Part shown: positions 17,889-54,081 of the stretch, in pieces | Layout of the letters: the number at the start of each line of letters is the position of its first letter | Position numbering within the stretch: the stretch's first letter is position 1 | DNA from: Polytrichum commune | Lineage: Eukaryota; Streptophyta; Polytrichopsida; Polytrichales; Polytrichaceae | DNA: 64,000 bases | NCBI GenBank assembly: GCA_950295325.1 | Contig: OX485804.1 | Coordinates: 61,722,533-61,786,532, forward strand | Reading direction: 5' to 3' | The notes under the pieces: model-generated | Seen by the model: the letters and a program-made list of their open reading frames with translations, nothing else | The model's database searches: none | Told to the model about the DNA's origin: nothing | Position numbers and translations under genes: made by a program

Positions 17889-19659
17889 GTGTTGGAATGT
17901 AGTTTTCACGTGGGATTCAAGAAGGCCTCAACCAACTTAAAAATAACACTAGAAAAAACTTGAGGCATAAACAATTCTTAATTTTTATCGTAATAAAGAG
18001 CCCTCTGTGATAATTGATTGAAAGTTGGAGAACATGAAAATCTACACATGAACACATCCGACCCACTATTATCTAGAATCTAGTGGACGAGTGTCCTACA
18101 TGGAAACTCACCCCAAGTAGAATATCCCTTGAATTTTATTGTGGACCCCATCTATCACCCTCCCTTTTGTTGGTGCATTAGTACTTCGCCCAACTTTTTT
18201 GGGCGGGCAACTACCCCAATGCCCGCCCGCCCGCCCATTCATTCATCGGGTCGCTAGCCAATAGCGATGGTTGGTGGCACGTCCTTCCGCGCCGTGTGAC
18301 CCAATTCGGCGCAATTGATTGGGTAGGTGTATGTAAGTTATGAATGTGGGCTCTCATATGAGTCCCACCCTTTGCCATGGCCTTGTCAATCTTTTTCACC
18401 CTTGTGATGGATTGGCAATCATGTACTTATTGGGTTCGTGTTCAAACTAGAATCCTCCCCAATACCATGGATGCAACAAAATGTAGCAAGAAAAAGGGTT
18501 GTTGTCATCACGTTTATGGTCGTTCCATCTTACTTGACTCATGAGGGTAACTCTCTTGTAGAGATATGAATCATGTGTGATGGAGGAGTACTTTTGATTG
18601 GGCTACAAAGTAACACACAAATTTATGGGATGTTTTGCACATTTAGGTTGTATGCAAGTATTTAGACTAGTTCAAGTATTTATACCAACAAGTTTCTTTT
18701 CCAAGTATTTGAGGTATTAGGATTTTTTTTTTAAAAAAAAAAAATTTACCCCAAGGTTGTATGCATGCCAATTTGAAGTGTTTAAGACAATTTGAGAAGT
18801 TTTAGTGTTGATTGCCAGTTTTTTTGCAAGCAATTTAAGTCTTAAGACATATTTTATGTGGAGAGTTGTGTTTTGTTGGTTTCCAAGGTTGGATATTTGA
18901 CGATTTGAGGTTTTTAAGCTAGATTAAGGGTATTTTGTTGTATATTTTGGGTTTTATTTTAAGGTTTTGTATTTTGTTGCTTTTCAACCTCTACTTTATG
19001 AAGGTCTTTGGTGATCAATGTGTGTAGCTCATCCTCTAGCTGCGCCGCAACATCTAGTTGGTGGTTGGGTCTCATGTAAAGAGAAGGAATATTCGGAGTA
19101 GGTGAGGCATTTTTGGGTACCCTATAGATGTTTTGGATAAGCGTATTGCACCTAGGTTGGCAAATGATGCATCTTGCATGATTACCCTAAATTGGTTTTC
19201 TAAAACCAAAAGCCAACTCAAGTACAAATATGATGGTATTGACATGCATTGGGTAGGTATAGAGACCATAATCTCTTCTATCACAATGACTTTTGGTCCC
19301 CATGATATGTACAAACTAGATGCTTGTGACACAAAAACTCTAAAAAAGAGTTTGTTTCTAGTATGAAAAAACAAGAATAAATTTTGTTATGGTTTGTTAC
19401 AGTAAGTTTGGGCACCCACTTCACTTTTTAACTAGAAGATGGTGTTTGGTATCTCCTAATAATGGTTTTTTCTAAATCACCTCCAAAAATAAGAAAATTT
19501 ACAATATCATATCAAAATAGGTAGTCCCCCCCCCCCCCCAAACGGAGATAATCCCCTCTATTATAAACATTGTTATCGCACATGGTCTCCTAAATAATAT
19601 AGAGAGGAACTTTTTTGAGGTTGCATAAGAGCATTCTTCTTATTCAACTATATTAATTA
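17889..19659. other. Intergenic DNA with a (GCCC)n GC patch
   Basis: A GC-rich patch at about 18195-18300 contains (CCCG)n at 18221-18236 and a GGGCGGGCA segment that can pair with it. T8/A12 runs occur at 18722-18745. A run of 14 C lies at 19526-19539. No gene was recognised. A pair of overlapping opposite-strand frames around 19072-19374 lacks any motif. Confidence 0.5.
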
Positions 19660-27059: not shown

Positions 27060-28860
27060 TAAAACAAACAAAAAAAACACACAAATATAACCCCTTAATA
27101 GAAACCATCAAAGCTCAAGTTGGCAAGTTAGCCCTCTCATAGTAATCACCATGGTCTGCAAGTGTAAGAAGAGAAATAAGCACCCATAATATGAACCAAC
27201 TAGGACACATGTAGTGTCCTCCCTCATTTGTGAAGAAATCAATGAAAGAGATACACCCGGGGAGGGCACTCATACATGTATTTAATAACCCATCTGCGAC
27301 GGAAGGGTATTTATCATGGGGCTATTTATCTAAAAATTGAAATTCTTTACACCCTATCAGTACAGATAAATCTAAATTTTGTCATTTTAGATGACCCTAT
27401 TGGTATTTATAAAGTCGCAACTGAACTAGTTTCTAGTACCCTATGTTTCTTATAATTTTTATATTTGACCCCATGAATGACAACTCATAGGACTCTTGAA
27501 AGTTTGTAGTGAAAATTCAATAAACCATGTCTAGATTGAAGACATCAAACAATGTACCAAAACATAAAAACTTGAAGCATTATTAAGACCTCCTATTGTT
27601 CCAAAACATACATCAAACAATGTTCAAATCAAACAAATTTGAAGCAAGTAAACTTGAGAGAAACACCAAAATAAAACGAATGAAGACAAGATTCTACTAC
27701 TAGAACTCCGAAAACCGCACACAACCACAAAATACACGTCAAGAACTTCAACACCAAATCCTACCTCACAAGCAGCGCTGCATTGGCGCAAGCAACCCTA
27801 GGCAAAAATCAAAGATACAACGCACAAAGCAAAGAACACCAAAACCCTCGTCATCCAAATTTTTCATTCGGGAATTTGGATTGAAAATGGATAGTTTTTC
27901 ATCCATTGACCACCATAAAATGCATTATATACCTCTGCCTCAATATATTTTTCTCTACCTACTATTCCCAACCCTATTTTAGATTGAAAGAATTAGATAA
28001 ACTGATGCATTATATGGTACCCTTATTTTTTTATATACACAACTTTGTAATTGAAGAGGTGCTTCATTATATCGAAGAATTGTATAAATTTTATCACAAA
28101 TGAATAAAAAATACCCTACATTCTTTCTCACATGGTTTAATAAATTTTCGCGAGTGCCCTCCCCGGGGAGATACACCTAATTGCCATCAAATACCTCACA
28201 TACCTTGCCCTAAGCAAACGGAAACTAGAGGTACAACTCCCTCCCACACACCCCCCCCCCCCCCACCCCCACGGAACACTTGACTCACTTCTCTCATAAC
28301 ATGACCATAGAGCCCACCTATTGAAAGGTAGGCAAGAATCCCTACCCTAGTCCGATCTCATTAAATATGTGTCATTTTGGTGTCCCCTTTACAAGCCTTA
28401 CCATATTCCAGTCAAACTTGTGTTTCCAAAAAAGAAGAATGACCACATAAGACCCAAATACCTTAGGGTATGCGGACCCAAAATTGAACACTAATCTCGT
28501 ACAAATGATATATTTGAGTGGTGTATGACTTGTAGTTAGGAACAGACACCAAAAAGACAAATGTTACGATGAGATTGGACTATATGCTTAAAATGTGACA
28601 CCATATTAAATTTAATTATTAACACAATTGAAAGAGCATATGTGATTGCTCAAAGAGAAAGACGAAGCTTCACTTTGACCTTGTGTAACTGTTGCATCTC
28701 AACACCAATTTTGACAATTAAACATGACAATCTTCATAAATCGCTAACCATATGAGACAATCCACAATCCCATCCAACGGCACAAAATGGATGTGAAGTT
28801 GGAGATGTCCATTGTAGGCCTGCATACCTTACTAGGGGGAAGATTATGCCTCGGGTGCAT
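27060..28860. repeat. Dispersed repeat R1, copy a, interrupted by an 8-bp-TSD element
   Basis: The flanks (27089-27255 and 28168-28857) align closely with the uninterrupted copy at 52141-52985. Shared landmarks are CCTTAATAGAAACCATCAAA, GTGAAGAAATCAATGAA, a long C run (28251-28264) at the equivalent place, and CCTTAGGGTATG. The minus-strand frame at 28372-28560 is partly conserved between copies (FWCLFLTTSH, YPKV, VKG.PK), but copy b has a stop within it. Confidence 0.8.
27256..28167. mobile_element. TIR DNA transposon, 8-bp TSD, copy 1 (912 bp)
   Basis: Ends are perfect 16-bp inverted repeats (CCCGGGGAGGGCACTC / GAGTGCCCTCCCCGGG). Flanked by GAGATACA on both sides (27248-27255, 28168-28175). 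The empty site with a single GAGATACA is at 52292-52299. The second copy, 40140-40949, shares both ends but not the middle. A short frame near the right end (27906-28103, ending YIEELYKFYHK) is open in both copies, but the evidence for selection is too thin to call it a gene. An 8-bp TSD fits hAT or KDZ/Zisupton-type elements. The termini do not look like the usual CA.G hAT ends. Superfamily unresolved. Confidence 0.9.
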
Positions 28861-40131: not shown

Positions 40132-40139
40132 GTCCGACT

Positions 40140-40949
40140 CCCGGGGAGGGCACTCATACATGTATTTAATAACCCATCTGCGACGGAAGGGTATTTATCA
40201 TGGGGCTATTTATCTAAGAAATTGGAATTATTTACACCCTATTAGTACAGATAAATCTAAATTTTGTCATTTTAGATGACCCTATTTGTATTTATAAAGT
40301 CGCAACTCAACTAGTTTCTAGTACCCTATGTTCCTTATAATTTTTATATTTGACCCCATGAATGACAACGCATAGGACTCTTGTGCAGAGTGTCTCTCGT
40401 CTGGTACAGTATCGTGAGAAACTTCGGCGTCGGTTGCCCACAGAGAAACAATCAAATGATTCTACTACTAGAACTCCGAAAACCACAAGCATACCACTAG
40501 AACTCAGAAAACCGCACACAACCACAAAATGCACGTCAAGAACTTCAACACCAAATCCTGCCTCACAAACAGCGTTGCATTGGTGCAAGCAACCCTAGGC
40601 AACGCACAAAGCAAAGAACACCAAAACCCTCGTCATCCAAATTTTTCATTCAGGAATTTGGATTCAAAATGGATAGTTTTTCATCCATTGACCACCATAA
40701 AATGCATTGTATACCTCTGCCTCAACATTTTTTTCTCTACCTACTATTCCCAACCCTATTTTAGATTGAAAGAATTAGATAAATTGATGCATTATATGGT
40801 ACCCTTATTTATTTATACACACAACTTTGTATTTGTAGAGGTGCTTCATTATATCGAAGAATTGTATAAATTTTATCACAAATGAATAAAAAGTACCCTA
40901 CATTCTTTCGCACATGGTTTAATAAATTTTCGCGAGTGCCCTCCCCGGG
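40140..40949. mobile_element. TIR DNA transposon, 8-bp TSD, copy 2 (810 bp)
   Basis: Same family as 27256-28167: identical 16-bp ends, flanked by GTCCGACT (40132-40139 and 40950-40957). The first about 245 bp and last about 480 bp align with copy 1. The core differs: 40384-40458 holds a GC-richer segment (GTGCAGAGTGTCTCTCG...) with a frame reading SRLVQYREKLRRRLPTEK, replacing about 220 bp of AT-rich DNA in copy 1. A short duplication of the CTAGAACTC.GAAAACC block follows. Confidence 0.9.
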
Positions 40950-40957
40950 GTCCGACT

Positions 40958-50304: not shown

Positions 50305-52124
50305 ATGAATACAAGAACCAAAAAGGACATCACAACCCCTACCCCACACATACACATGTCATATACCATCTCTATACAATGAACAACGTGATGGTGGTGG
50401 TGGTGGTGGTGGTGATGAGGCTGTTGTCTCACCGTTCCCTACAGTTGCGGTTGTGCCATCCCAACTTCACAGTAGTTGCAGTTGGCATGGACAACCGCTT
50501 ATGGATCATGTAGGTGGTCCCCATGAGAGCATGTAAGGGGCTTGGGTGGCTAGCTAGAGGGGACAAGGGGCACCATTGGAGGGACTCACACACATGTGTA
50601 CGTTTACGACTTATGGTTGCATGCACATTCCCATATTATGAGGTCCATAAAATAACATAGATTGGTAAGGTGAGTGATAAGGTGATATGTCTACCACATT
50701 CTCACAAGTGTGGGCATGTAAGTTATCGGTTGCAACTTCTACCGAGTGCTGATTGGTTGATTAGACATGAGTGGGTTATAACCTAGGAGGAATCGAAAAG
50801 AGAGTGCAATTTCCTACGGACTGTGTTCTCTTTAGATGGAAAAAAAATAAAAAATTGCAGCGAATCTAGGTACCCACTTGAGTCATTACTAGCATATGGG
50901 TTCTACGCAATTGTCCCACGTCGATGAAGGAACAATGCAAATATATCACTGTGCTAGATTTGTAAATTTTCCAGTTACATAAGATAAGTTTTCAGTGACG
51001 AAGGTCAATTGCCGAGAACTCGTATACTTGTAGTGGGTGCGCAAATTCTTTTTCTTTTTCTTTTTCCCTCTCACATTACATTTTTCTAAAGGAGGACACA
51101 TCAACCTCATATTCAACAATGCACACTTCAATATGCACATAAGTGTGTGTGTGCGTGTGTGCGCATGTGTGTGTGTAGAGGGTGAACATGTAATAAGTTG
51201 CTAGTTGCAGAGAAATCATTTGGAATTTAAAAAATTTGATAATCTAAAATGTTTATCTATGCTTATTTTTATGTTTTGAAACCAATTAAATTGTTCATGG
51301 TAAATATTGCGGGCCGTGGTATTGAGCTTATTTAAACCAAACAAATTTGAGTTTGATATTGAAAGTGTATACTAGTTATTAACCCATAGTGTTTTAACAT
51401 GGATGTCCACATTGTAGATTATAATACTTTTATCTTCTTGTACATATGTTGTAACTAAAAGACCTCCAACTTAGGAGAACGAGGTGCATATAGCACTAGA
51501 GCATGACAAATGTAAGTAGGGTTGTGCATTGTTTTCATGCACATTGGTGTAGAATGTGGTCAAACCATAGGGCTCAGGGGTCACTTGGAGATATATTATA
51601 GGGTTCATATAATCCTTGGACCTAAAAATCATAAACGATTAATTATAGAGAATATTGACACTACTATGAATCCGTCACGATTTGTAAATTTTGCGCATGA
51701 GTGCTAGGGGCCGGGACGCCATGGGTTTAAGCTAGTCCCATACATACTAGCCAAGCCACCCTCGACAATCAATCAAACAAGCATGATAAGAAACTTACAA
51801 ACCTTCATCAAAACCTAGCATGACAAACTCACAAACCTCCTCAAGTCATGTATACATATGCACCACCTCACATTGACCATTGTTGTCACACAAAACAATA
51901 GTCCCCAAGCAAACACCACCCCGCCATGGATCCTAACATGTAAATGCATTTCCACACAATAAACATGCATGGCGAAGCTATGACTGAACATTGTATGCAT
52001 ATAAGATGCTTCCATGGAATAGACCGGACCCCTAATACCAACACCTAACCTTAAAATCCAATTTATCAAATATGCATTCATCCACAATAGATACATAGAT
52101 AGAGCCATAACTTTTTTTTAAAGA
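50305..52124. other. Intergenic DNA with (GGT)n and diverged repeats
   Basis: (GGT)n at 50392-50414, whose reverse frames give poly-His artefacts. R4 copy b at about 50870-51005. (TG)n at 51144-51176. The partner of 44940-45175 lies at about 51240-51490. No gene. Confidence 0.5.
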
Positions 52125-52985
52125 AAAAGAAAAAAACCAAATACAACCCCTTAATAGAAACCATCAAAGCTCAAGTTGGCAAGTTAGCCCTCTCATAGTA
52201 ATCACTATGTAAGAAGAGAAATAAACACCCAAAAATTAACCAACTAGGAAACATGTAGTGCCCTCCCTCGATTGTGAAGAAATCAATGAATGAGATACAC
52301 CTAATTGTCATCAGAAACCTCACATACCATGTCCTGAGCAAACGGATTCTAGAGGCTTAACACCCCCCCCCCCCCACCCCATGGAACACTTGACTCACTA
52401 CTCCCATACCATTATCATAGAGCCCACCTATTGAAAGGTAGGCGAGAAGCCCTACTCTAGTCGAATCACATCATGATATGTGTCATTTCGGTATCCCCTT
52501 TACAAACCTTACCATATGCCACTCAAATTTACGTGTCCAAACAAAAAAGGTGACCACATAAGGCCCACATACCTTAGGGTATGTAGACCCGTAATTGAAC
52601 ACTTATCTTATGCAAATGCTATATTTGAGTGGTATATGACTTGTAGTTAGGAACAAACACCAAAAAGACACATGTTACAATGAGATTGGACTATATGCTT
52701 AAAATGTGTACACCATTCTAGATTCAATTGTTAACACAATTGGAAGAAAAAAATGTGACTGCTCAAAGAGAAAGAAGAAGCTTCACTTTGACCTCTTGCA
52801 ATTGTTGCATCTTAACTCCAATTTCGAGAATTAAAAAAAAGACAATGTTCATAAATCACAATTGCTAACCATATGAGACAATTGGCAATCCCATCCAATG
52901 GTGAAAAGTGGATGTGGAGTTGGAGGTGTTCGTTACAAGCCCGCATACCTTAGTAGGTAGTAGGGGGAAGATTATGCCTTGGGAT
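52125..52985. repeat. Dispersed repeat R1, copy b (empty site)
   Basis: Uninterrupted partner of 27060-28860. GAGATACA occurs once (52292-52299), followed directly by CCTAATTG, which fixes the insertion point and TSD of the 912-bp element. Contains 13 C at 52363-52375, at the same place as the C run in copy a. Confidence 0.85.
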
Positions 52986-54081
52986 TCCAAACCCACTTCG
53001 ACTTTGGGATAATATGTTCCCGAGGATGTTGAAAGACTTAGCTAGAACCCTTGATGTTGCCTACTAAGACATTTCCGGTAAATTCGAGGCAATGTGGTGT
53101 GTTAGTGGGCTCATTGCCACTCGAAGTAATCTAAAAATCACCTGAAAAATTAGACCTTAGATGGGTCACTACTACTTGATTCCCCTTGGTCCCTTGGTGG
53201 GAGTTCCCCTTGTTGGTTGTATTTGGGTTACTTTGGTTTCTCCTTGCAATTGAATGTGCTCAATTTGTATGAATAAAATATAATAAAAGGAACACCAATG
53301 TTTGGTTACACTAACGTGAATGGGAGCTTGTTCTTCCTAACTTTGATTGTGTTTTATCAAGCTTCAAGGTAGGAGTAATTCTTTGTTTCAGAGGGTGGGC
53401 TCTCTTACGTAGTACATGCAGGTGTTGGGCTGGAGACATTGCCTTCTGACGGGTCTACTCGATTTATTTGTTGTCTAGCTTCCTCTTGTTTAGGACTAGG
53501 TAGGTGAGGTGAATAGTGGATATTTGATGCATATGTTTCATGAGTTTTTTGTTTTTTTTGTTTTTTTTTGTTTTCCCCTTCCCATGTGGGGGTATGTTGA
53601 GATTTTAAATGCTTGCTTTGATGGTTGGTGGGTAGCTCCTCTTACGTCGGCTGAGATGGTGATAAGAGGATTAACTTTCCAGCGAGTTGTTGTGAGCTCT
53701 CAATTTTCACCGAAAAGTAAAAAAAGGAAAAGAGAAGAGAAGAGAAGAGAAGACGTAAGTTCCCTTGAAGGGCTGACAATTGATTTCGTCAAGTAAGGTG
53801 GCCACGAATCGGCAATAATCGCGGCACTTAACTTTTGTAGTTGTAACATAGTGTCCCTTTTTGTGTTTTCATGCACGAGCGTAATAATGTGGGAATTGGG
53901 GCATGGGCTGAGTGCTGGCTGTGCATGAAGCCACTCCGACTGTACGAAGGCCATGGCCTTACACTTTGGGAATCTACTTACAAGCTTCGCAAACAAACAC
54001 ATGCGGACAAACCATTTGGAGCCAGGAGCATACGGAGCTTGCTGCTCTTGTTGTTGTTGTTGTTGTTTATTACACCATATG

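Follow-up and report, generated by a model that had tools for sequence, protein, structure and literature searches.

Copies of transposons and the empty target site

What are the two short repeats with identical ends that lie in a 64,000-nucleotide stretch of the genome of the moss Polytrichum commune (the window hereafter), and which protein could move them? The first repeat, copy 1, is 912 bp long (27256-28167) and begins and ends with the same 16-bp terminal inverted repeat, exactly CCCGGGGAGGGCACTC on the plus strand at 27256-27271 and exact on the minus strand at 28152-28167. It is flanked on each side by the octamer GAGATACA (27248-27255 and 28168-28175). The second, copy 2, has the same layout over 810 bp (40140-40949) and is flanked by GTCCGACT (40132-40139 and 40950-40957). 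The 16-bp inverted ends are thus the same in both copies and the 8-bp duplications of each are perfect. Both copies are assigned to the minus strand; for copy 1 this is the strand of a lost coding region, its 27256 end matching the gene-3′ end of an 8.6-kb copy to which we return later. The 16-mer is counted four times in the window, against 0.03 times on average in dinucleotide shuffles even when three mismatches are tolerated there.

A paralogous target site at 52292-52299 is unfilled and holds GAGATACA once. When the flanks of copy 1 are joined with a single GAGATACA and compared with 51601-53000, the two align without a break at the junction, in 722 columns with 85% identity, which supports the insertion claimed in the original prediction from this empty paralogue.

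Genome-wide distribution of the ends

The assembly searched comprises 407.8 Mb in 64 contigs, the window lying on C2. One contig (C8) is plastid, and the PsaB it encodes is most similar to PDB 8htu, 6l35/7xqp and 7ksq/7kux (1,700-1,705 bits, the next scoring 1,667), which are Physcomitrium structures; the presence of seven large contigs would agree with a moss of n = 7, as in Polytrichaceae. It contains 110 exact 16-mers (59 on the plus and 51 on the minus strand), while the backward-read pattern used as a control gives none. Among the 100 listed of these 110 places, reading yields 38 facing pairs and 24 singletons, of which 21 pairs (19 fetched and the two in the window) and 20 singletons were examined. 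The 8-bp duplication is perfect in 20 of the 21 pairs, the exception being L019, and in 21 of 22 copies with both ends placed when the 8.6-kb copy is included. Among the singletons, 16 of 20 show a perfect duplication next to a mutated second end. The four others comprise L028 and L035, whose duplications carry one and two mismatches respectively, L037, in which the family match extends over 68 bp only, and L041, which is one end of the 8.6-kb copy and whose duplication is perfect at the level of that copy. Family copies fall into size classes of ∼410, ∼810 and ∼910 bp.

The 37 different duplications have T at position 3 in 24 cases and A at position 6 in 17, a preference with a Fisher p of 7.7e-6 against the other positions, these two having been picked after inspection. 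Three comparisons of filled and unfilled sites support insertion: the window site at 52292, the element within a MULE relative at L055 set against L056, which has the target site once, and the nested element of L001 set against window copy 1, which is uninterrupted at 27607. Inverted ends, a duplication of fixed length and empty sites are all present, and the family is a class II TIR (cut-and-paste) transposon. A TIR family with 8-bp duplications had been predicted from the window copies, and such duplications are now found at nearly all the other copies examined.

A pair of ends on C5 enclosing 20,491 bp was considered as an autonomous copy and rejected: its duplication is perfect, but its interior is a composite of a retroelement and a nested LTR retroelement. 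This locus (C5:35296549-35317039; L002, L021, L022 and L003) is a family copy enlarged to 20,491 bp, and its outer 8-bp duplication is still perfect. The retroelement inside it carries frames resembling reverse transcriptase and RNase H, together with the motif GDIEPNPGP, which we take to be 2A-like, and is split by the LTR retroelement.

A wider group of related ends

Ends related to those of the window copies are found elsewhere in the genome. The end CACGGGGGGATCACTC combined with the subterminal CCACGTGCGA occurs at 39 places (control 0), and CMCGGGGRGGNCAC, where base 21 is a pyrimidine, at 311 places (control 6). Eleven loci were read for related elements, and in eight of them a total of nine elements combine two ends with a perfect 8-bp duplication (the nested element of L001, L044, L055, L059, L062, two in L063, L064 and L065). 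A further element, L066, has a duplication with one mismatch, and the scan gave no two-ended element with a duplication at L060 and L061; a 3.3-kb element considered at L060 was rejected because the flanks of its two outer ends differ. Since these related-end elements also make 8-bp duplications, the window family belongs, as one of its branches, to a larger group with such duplications. Beside the gene-3′ end of one coding relative lies another small element of ∼500 bp (L070:244-743), with CACGGGTAGATCAC ends and the duplication TCTAAACC.

A broken coding element with the same ends

One member of the group, the 1,500-bp element of L059, has a 267-codon frame that gives no Pfam match. Searching the genome with this frame returned 152 matches from 1,669 first-look candidates (144 scored). 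Several of the matches fall where frames of ∼1,500 codons end, and one of them, on C6 (L041), is located 676 bp inward from a CCCGGGGAGGGCACTC end. The latter belongs to an element of 8,611 bp (C6:7932199-7940809; L067 and L041) that has the ends CCCGGGGAGAGCACTC and CCCGGGGAGGGCACTC and the perfect duplication GTTCTCTC, and that joins the same two kinds of ends as in the window copies to a broken coding region, interrupted by at least one stop and at least one frameshift.

Both window copies align with the two extremities of this element. Bases 1-421 of copy 1 are 96.2% identical to its gene-3′ end and bases 440-912 are 91.4% identical to its other end; for copy 2 the corresponding values are 97.5% (bases 1-244) and 94.1% (bases 241-810), so that copy 2 is almost wholly covered by the two ends of the C6 element. 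By these alignments, the window copies are shown to be internal deletions of the 8,611-bp structure, as Ds is of Ac.

Long relatives and a protein of about 1,500 residues

Relatives with related ends (beginning C[ACT]CGGGG) carry a single open frame of ∼1,500 codons. The element of L071, 5,802 bp long, has 18 of 18 terminal bases matching, the perfect 8-bp duplication AATCTAGA and a frame of 1,549 codons running from stop to stop over L071:1006-5652 on the minus strand; that of L072, 6,351 bp long, has both ends, the perfect 8-bp duplication AAAGAAAC and a frame of 1,493 codons. Counting the broken copy on C6 (L067 and L041), three of the elements in which the protein occurs have two ends and a perfect 8-bp duplication. 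Four other loci (L068, L069 with one mismatch, L070 and L073) have the family end on the gene-3′ side only, and the three remaining ones of the ten protein loci (L074-L076) show no ends within the fetched flanks, which are too short to hold them.

The stop-to-stop length is 1,493-1,549 codons in seven of the ten proteins, and core identities among the ten range from 57% to 98%. Three acidic residues in the arrangement D-119-D-242-E are invariant in all ten cores, as is a DxxH motif located 47 residues past the second D. Upstream there are two segments rich in Cys and His, along with a GRP (AT-hook-like) motif, and downstream a conserved WWxGRVQ domain, all labels of our own taken from the alignment. 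The three invariant acids and the DxxH motif identify the protein as a putative DDE transposase of the DxxH/CxxH group, an assignment made by motif match and not by proof of catalysis. The DxxH motif suggests the group of DDE transposases that includes hAT, P, MuDR, Kolobok and Dada.

A trace of a similar protein is present in the window itself, where 19076-19348, translated on the plus strand, is 27-37% identical to the C-terminal domain of the large protein (best E 1e-13). The segment has no long open plus-strand frame and is therefore probably a relic of a related element.

Searches for relatives of the protein

Sequence libraries give little for this protein. Three full proteins matched no Pfam family at E 5, and at E 10 the only families to match any of the ten cores were SPP1_portal (E 0.3) and Cas1 (E 0.088), each with a single core and at chance level. 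NCBIfam returned no match, PHROGs one weak match (E 0.021), and PDB sequences two matches above E 0.6 for a single protein and none for the profile. The viral and genome contig collections searched contain no confirmed relatives, and the accessible parts of the open-licence literature yielded no description of this transposon family. The view of the original prediction that the family is undescribed holds as far as the Pfam, NCBIfam and PDB-sequence libraries reach, and a protein of ∼1,500 residues that matches nothing in the libraries searched may represent a new transposon branch.

Structure prediction with AlphaFold, from alignments of 10 and 20 rows (58-84% identical to the first sequence), reached mean pLDDT values of 41.9 and 46.0, too poor to use, and Foldseek found nothing at E 0.001 or better with either model. 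Its top ranks are unrelated proteins: RAG1 at rank 2 (E 0.41) in one search, and kinesin-like and STING proteins in the other. In both low-confidence models a strand terminates at the first D, the second D comes after a strand, and a long helical stretch precedes the helix that contains the E; this order of strands and helices hints at what would be expected of an insertion-bearing RNase H fold.

A model for mobilization

The explanation that best accounts for these observations is that the window copies are internally deleted, non-autonomous members of a cut-and-paste DNA transposon family, with the ∼1,500-residue protein most likely its transposase, and we give it a probability of about 0.8. 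The movement of the window copies would then depend entirely on a transposase supplied in trans from another place in the genome, for which the ∼1,500-residue protein encoded by longer elements with ends of this kind is the most likely candidate. This protein would have an RNase H-like fold with a DDE triad as its catalytic site. It would bind the 16-bp ends and a conserved subterminal motif resembling AACCA(T/C)(G/C)TGCGA through its N-terminal Cys/His-rich and AT-hook-like segments, cut the element out and join it to an 8-bp staggered cut. Repair by the host would fill the 8-bp gaps and produce the duplications. Short deletion derivatives and a coding copy in one genome make a clean two-component system for an activity test.

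Proposed place among DDE transposons

By every sequence test applied, the protein would represent a lineage among the DxxH/CxxH-type DDE transposases that lies outside hAT, MULE, P and KDZ. A bolder proposal, which we put forward tentatively and at somewhat less than even odds, is that of an unnamed eukaryotic DDE superfamily, characterized by 8-bp duplications with the T3/A6 preference, C[ACT]CGGGG ends, the subterminal motif and a single-frame D-119-D-242-E transposase of ∼1,500 residues, abundant and recently active in this moss and outside the plant TIR superfamilies of the reviews. These superfamilies number six or seven in the relevant sections of two reviews (PMC9033089, PMC10741241) and, as listed, share none of these features except the 8-bp duplication of hAT. 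If the proposal is true, the DDE tree would gain a lineage whose transposase is very large and uncharacterised and has many near-identical copies and open frames. It would account for MITE-like repeats that annotation pipelines fail to place, and the activity of the transposase could be tested directly.

The moss protein could instead belong to a strongly diverged lineage of the P superfamily, a reading that we consider unlikely though by no means negligible. P element and THAP9 share with the moss family duplications of ∼8 bp (for P elements, as given in an extract of PMC3706591), a DxxH motif between the second D and the last E, and the same fold order with a large helical insertion before the last E. 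In hTHAP9 and DmTNP this insertion interrupts the RNase H fold before the helix with the last E, according to passages of PMC8230255; in the moss protein it is seen in the low-confidence models only, where strands, one of them followed by a D, give way to a long helical stretch and then to the helix with the E. Against this reading, the P superfamily does not appear in the list of plant TIR superfamilies as excerpted from PMC10741241, and the P-element models PF12017 and PF21787 match neither the three full proteins nor the ten cores. They also have no match in the genome, a weak result given that the controls were equally silent. For P as for KDZ, the silence of the genome-wide controls means that it is the protein-side searches that carry weight. 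The moss family is further set apart from P by its protein of ∼1,500 residues, its C[ACT]CGGGG ends and its moss host.

Novosib elements make 8-bp duplications, a feature common to them and the moss family. Descent from Novosib, or from some other sparsely sampled superfamily of Repbase not covered by a Pfam model, is quite improbable in our judgement. Novosib is listed among the DDD/E superfamilies, and has few entries, in the sections available of PMC4455052 and PMC9587614, and was seen only in protists in one survey, as reported in part of PMC4438587. Sola, which is present in the moss Physcomitrella, resembles the moss family in having a large transposase and in being reported in mosses, but its duplications measure 4 bp (in an extract of PMC10741241) against the 8 bp found at 21 of 22 family copies.

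A very improbable reading is that of a standard hAT or MULE family with an overlooked autonomous copy, the 1,500-residue protein being a passenger. The genome is rich in both kinds of elements, with at least 150 matches to the hAT dimerisation model among 1,060 candidates and 142 matches to the MULE model among 271. Like hAT, the moss family has 8-bp duplications, short inverted ends, deletion derivatives of the Ac/Ds kind and a motif of the CxxH/DxxH type. The duplications of hAT prefer T2/A7, a preference that the 37 family duplications do not follow, showing T3/A6 instead. That 8 bp is the usual length for hAT is stated in an excerpt of PMC10741241. In none of the 12 hAT loci (L043-L054) and six MULE loci (L055-L058, L061 and L062) sampled is the hAT or MULE gene bracketed by family ends; the ends found there belong to small elements beside or inside these genes. 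MULE as a mobilizer was considered on the strength of three co-locations of ends and MULEs (L055, L061 and L062) and rejected, each being a small element inside or beside a MULE. The hAT dimerisation domain PF05699 and the MULE domain PF10551 match host hAT and MULE proteins respectively and are found in none of the three full proteins or ten cores, while hhalign of the core against the host hAT and MULE alignments gives probabilities of only 0.2% and 0.1%. Moreover, the large protein recurs in elements with related ends. The doubt originally expressed about hAT, on account of the look of the ends, is upheld by the 12 unbracketed hAT loci, the silent hAT model and the T3/A6 preference, and the full-length relatives encode no recognisable hAT or MULE transposase.

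Finally, a KDZ (Zisupton) family, suggested in the original prediction and resembling the moss family in its 8-bp duplications (described for Zisupton in a portion of PMC12730594), is scarcely credible and is left unsupported because the Pfam KDZ model PF18758 matches neither the three full proteins (E 5) nor the ten cores (E 10), nor anything in the genome, where its control was equally silent.

Host hAT and MULE loci

The sampled loci offer some observations in their own right. L047 and L048 hold hAT-domain genes with frames of 1,084 and 989 codons and long tandem-like repeats upstream; the L047 gene combines DUF659 with hAT dimerisation and has several 1,084-codon copies in the genome. The MULE-type element copies of L056 and L057 are 99.6-99.7% identical over more than 5.5 kb. 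In L062, near-identical leucine-rich units follow one another in a row on the minus strand (L062:1163-2158), adjoining a MULE fragment.
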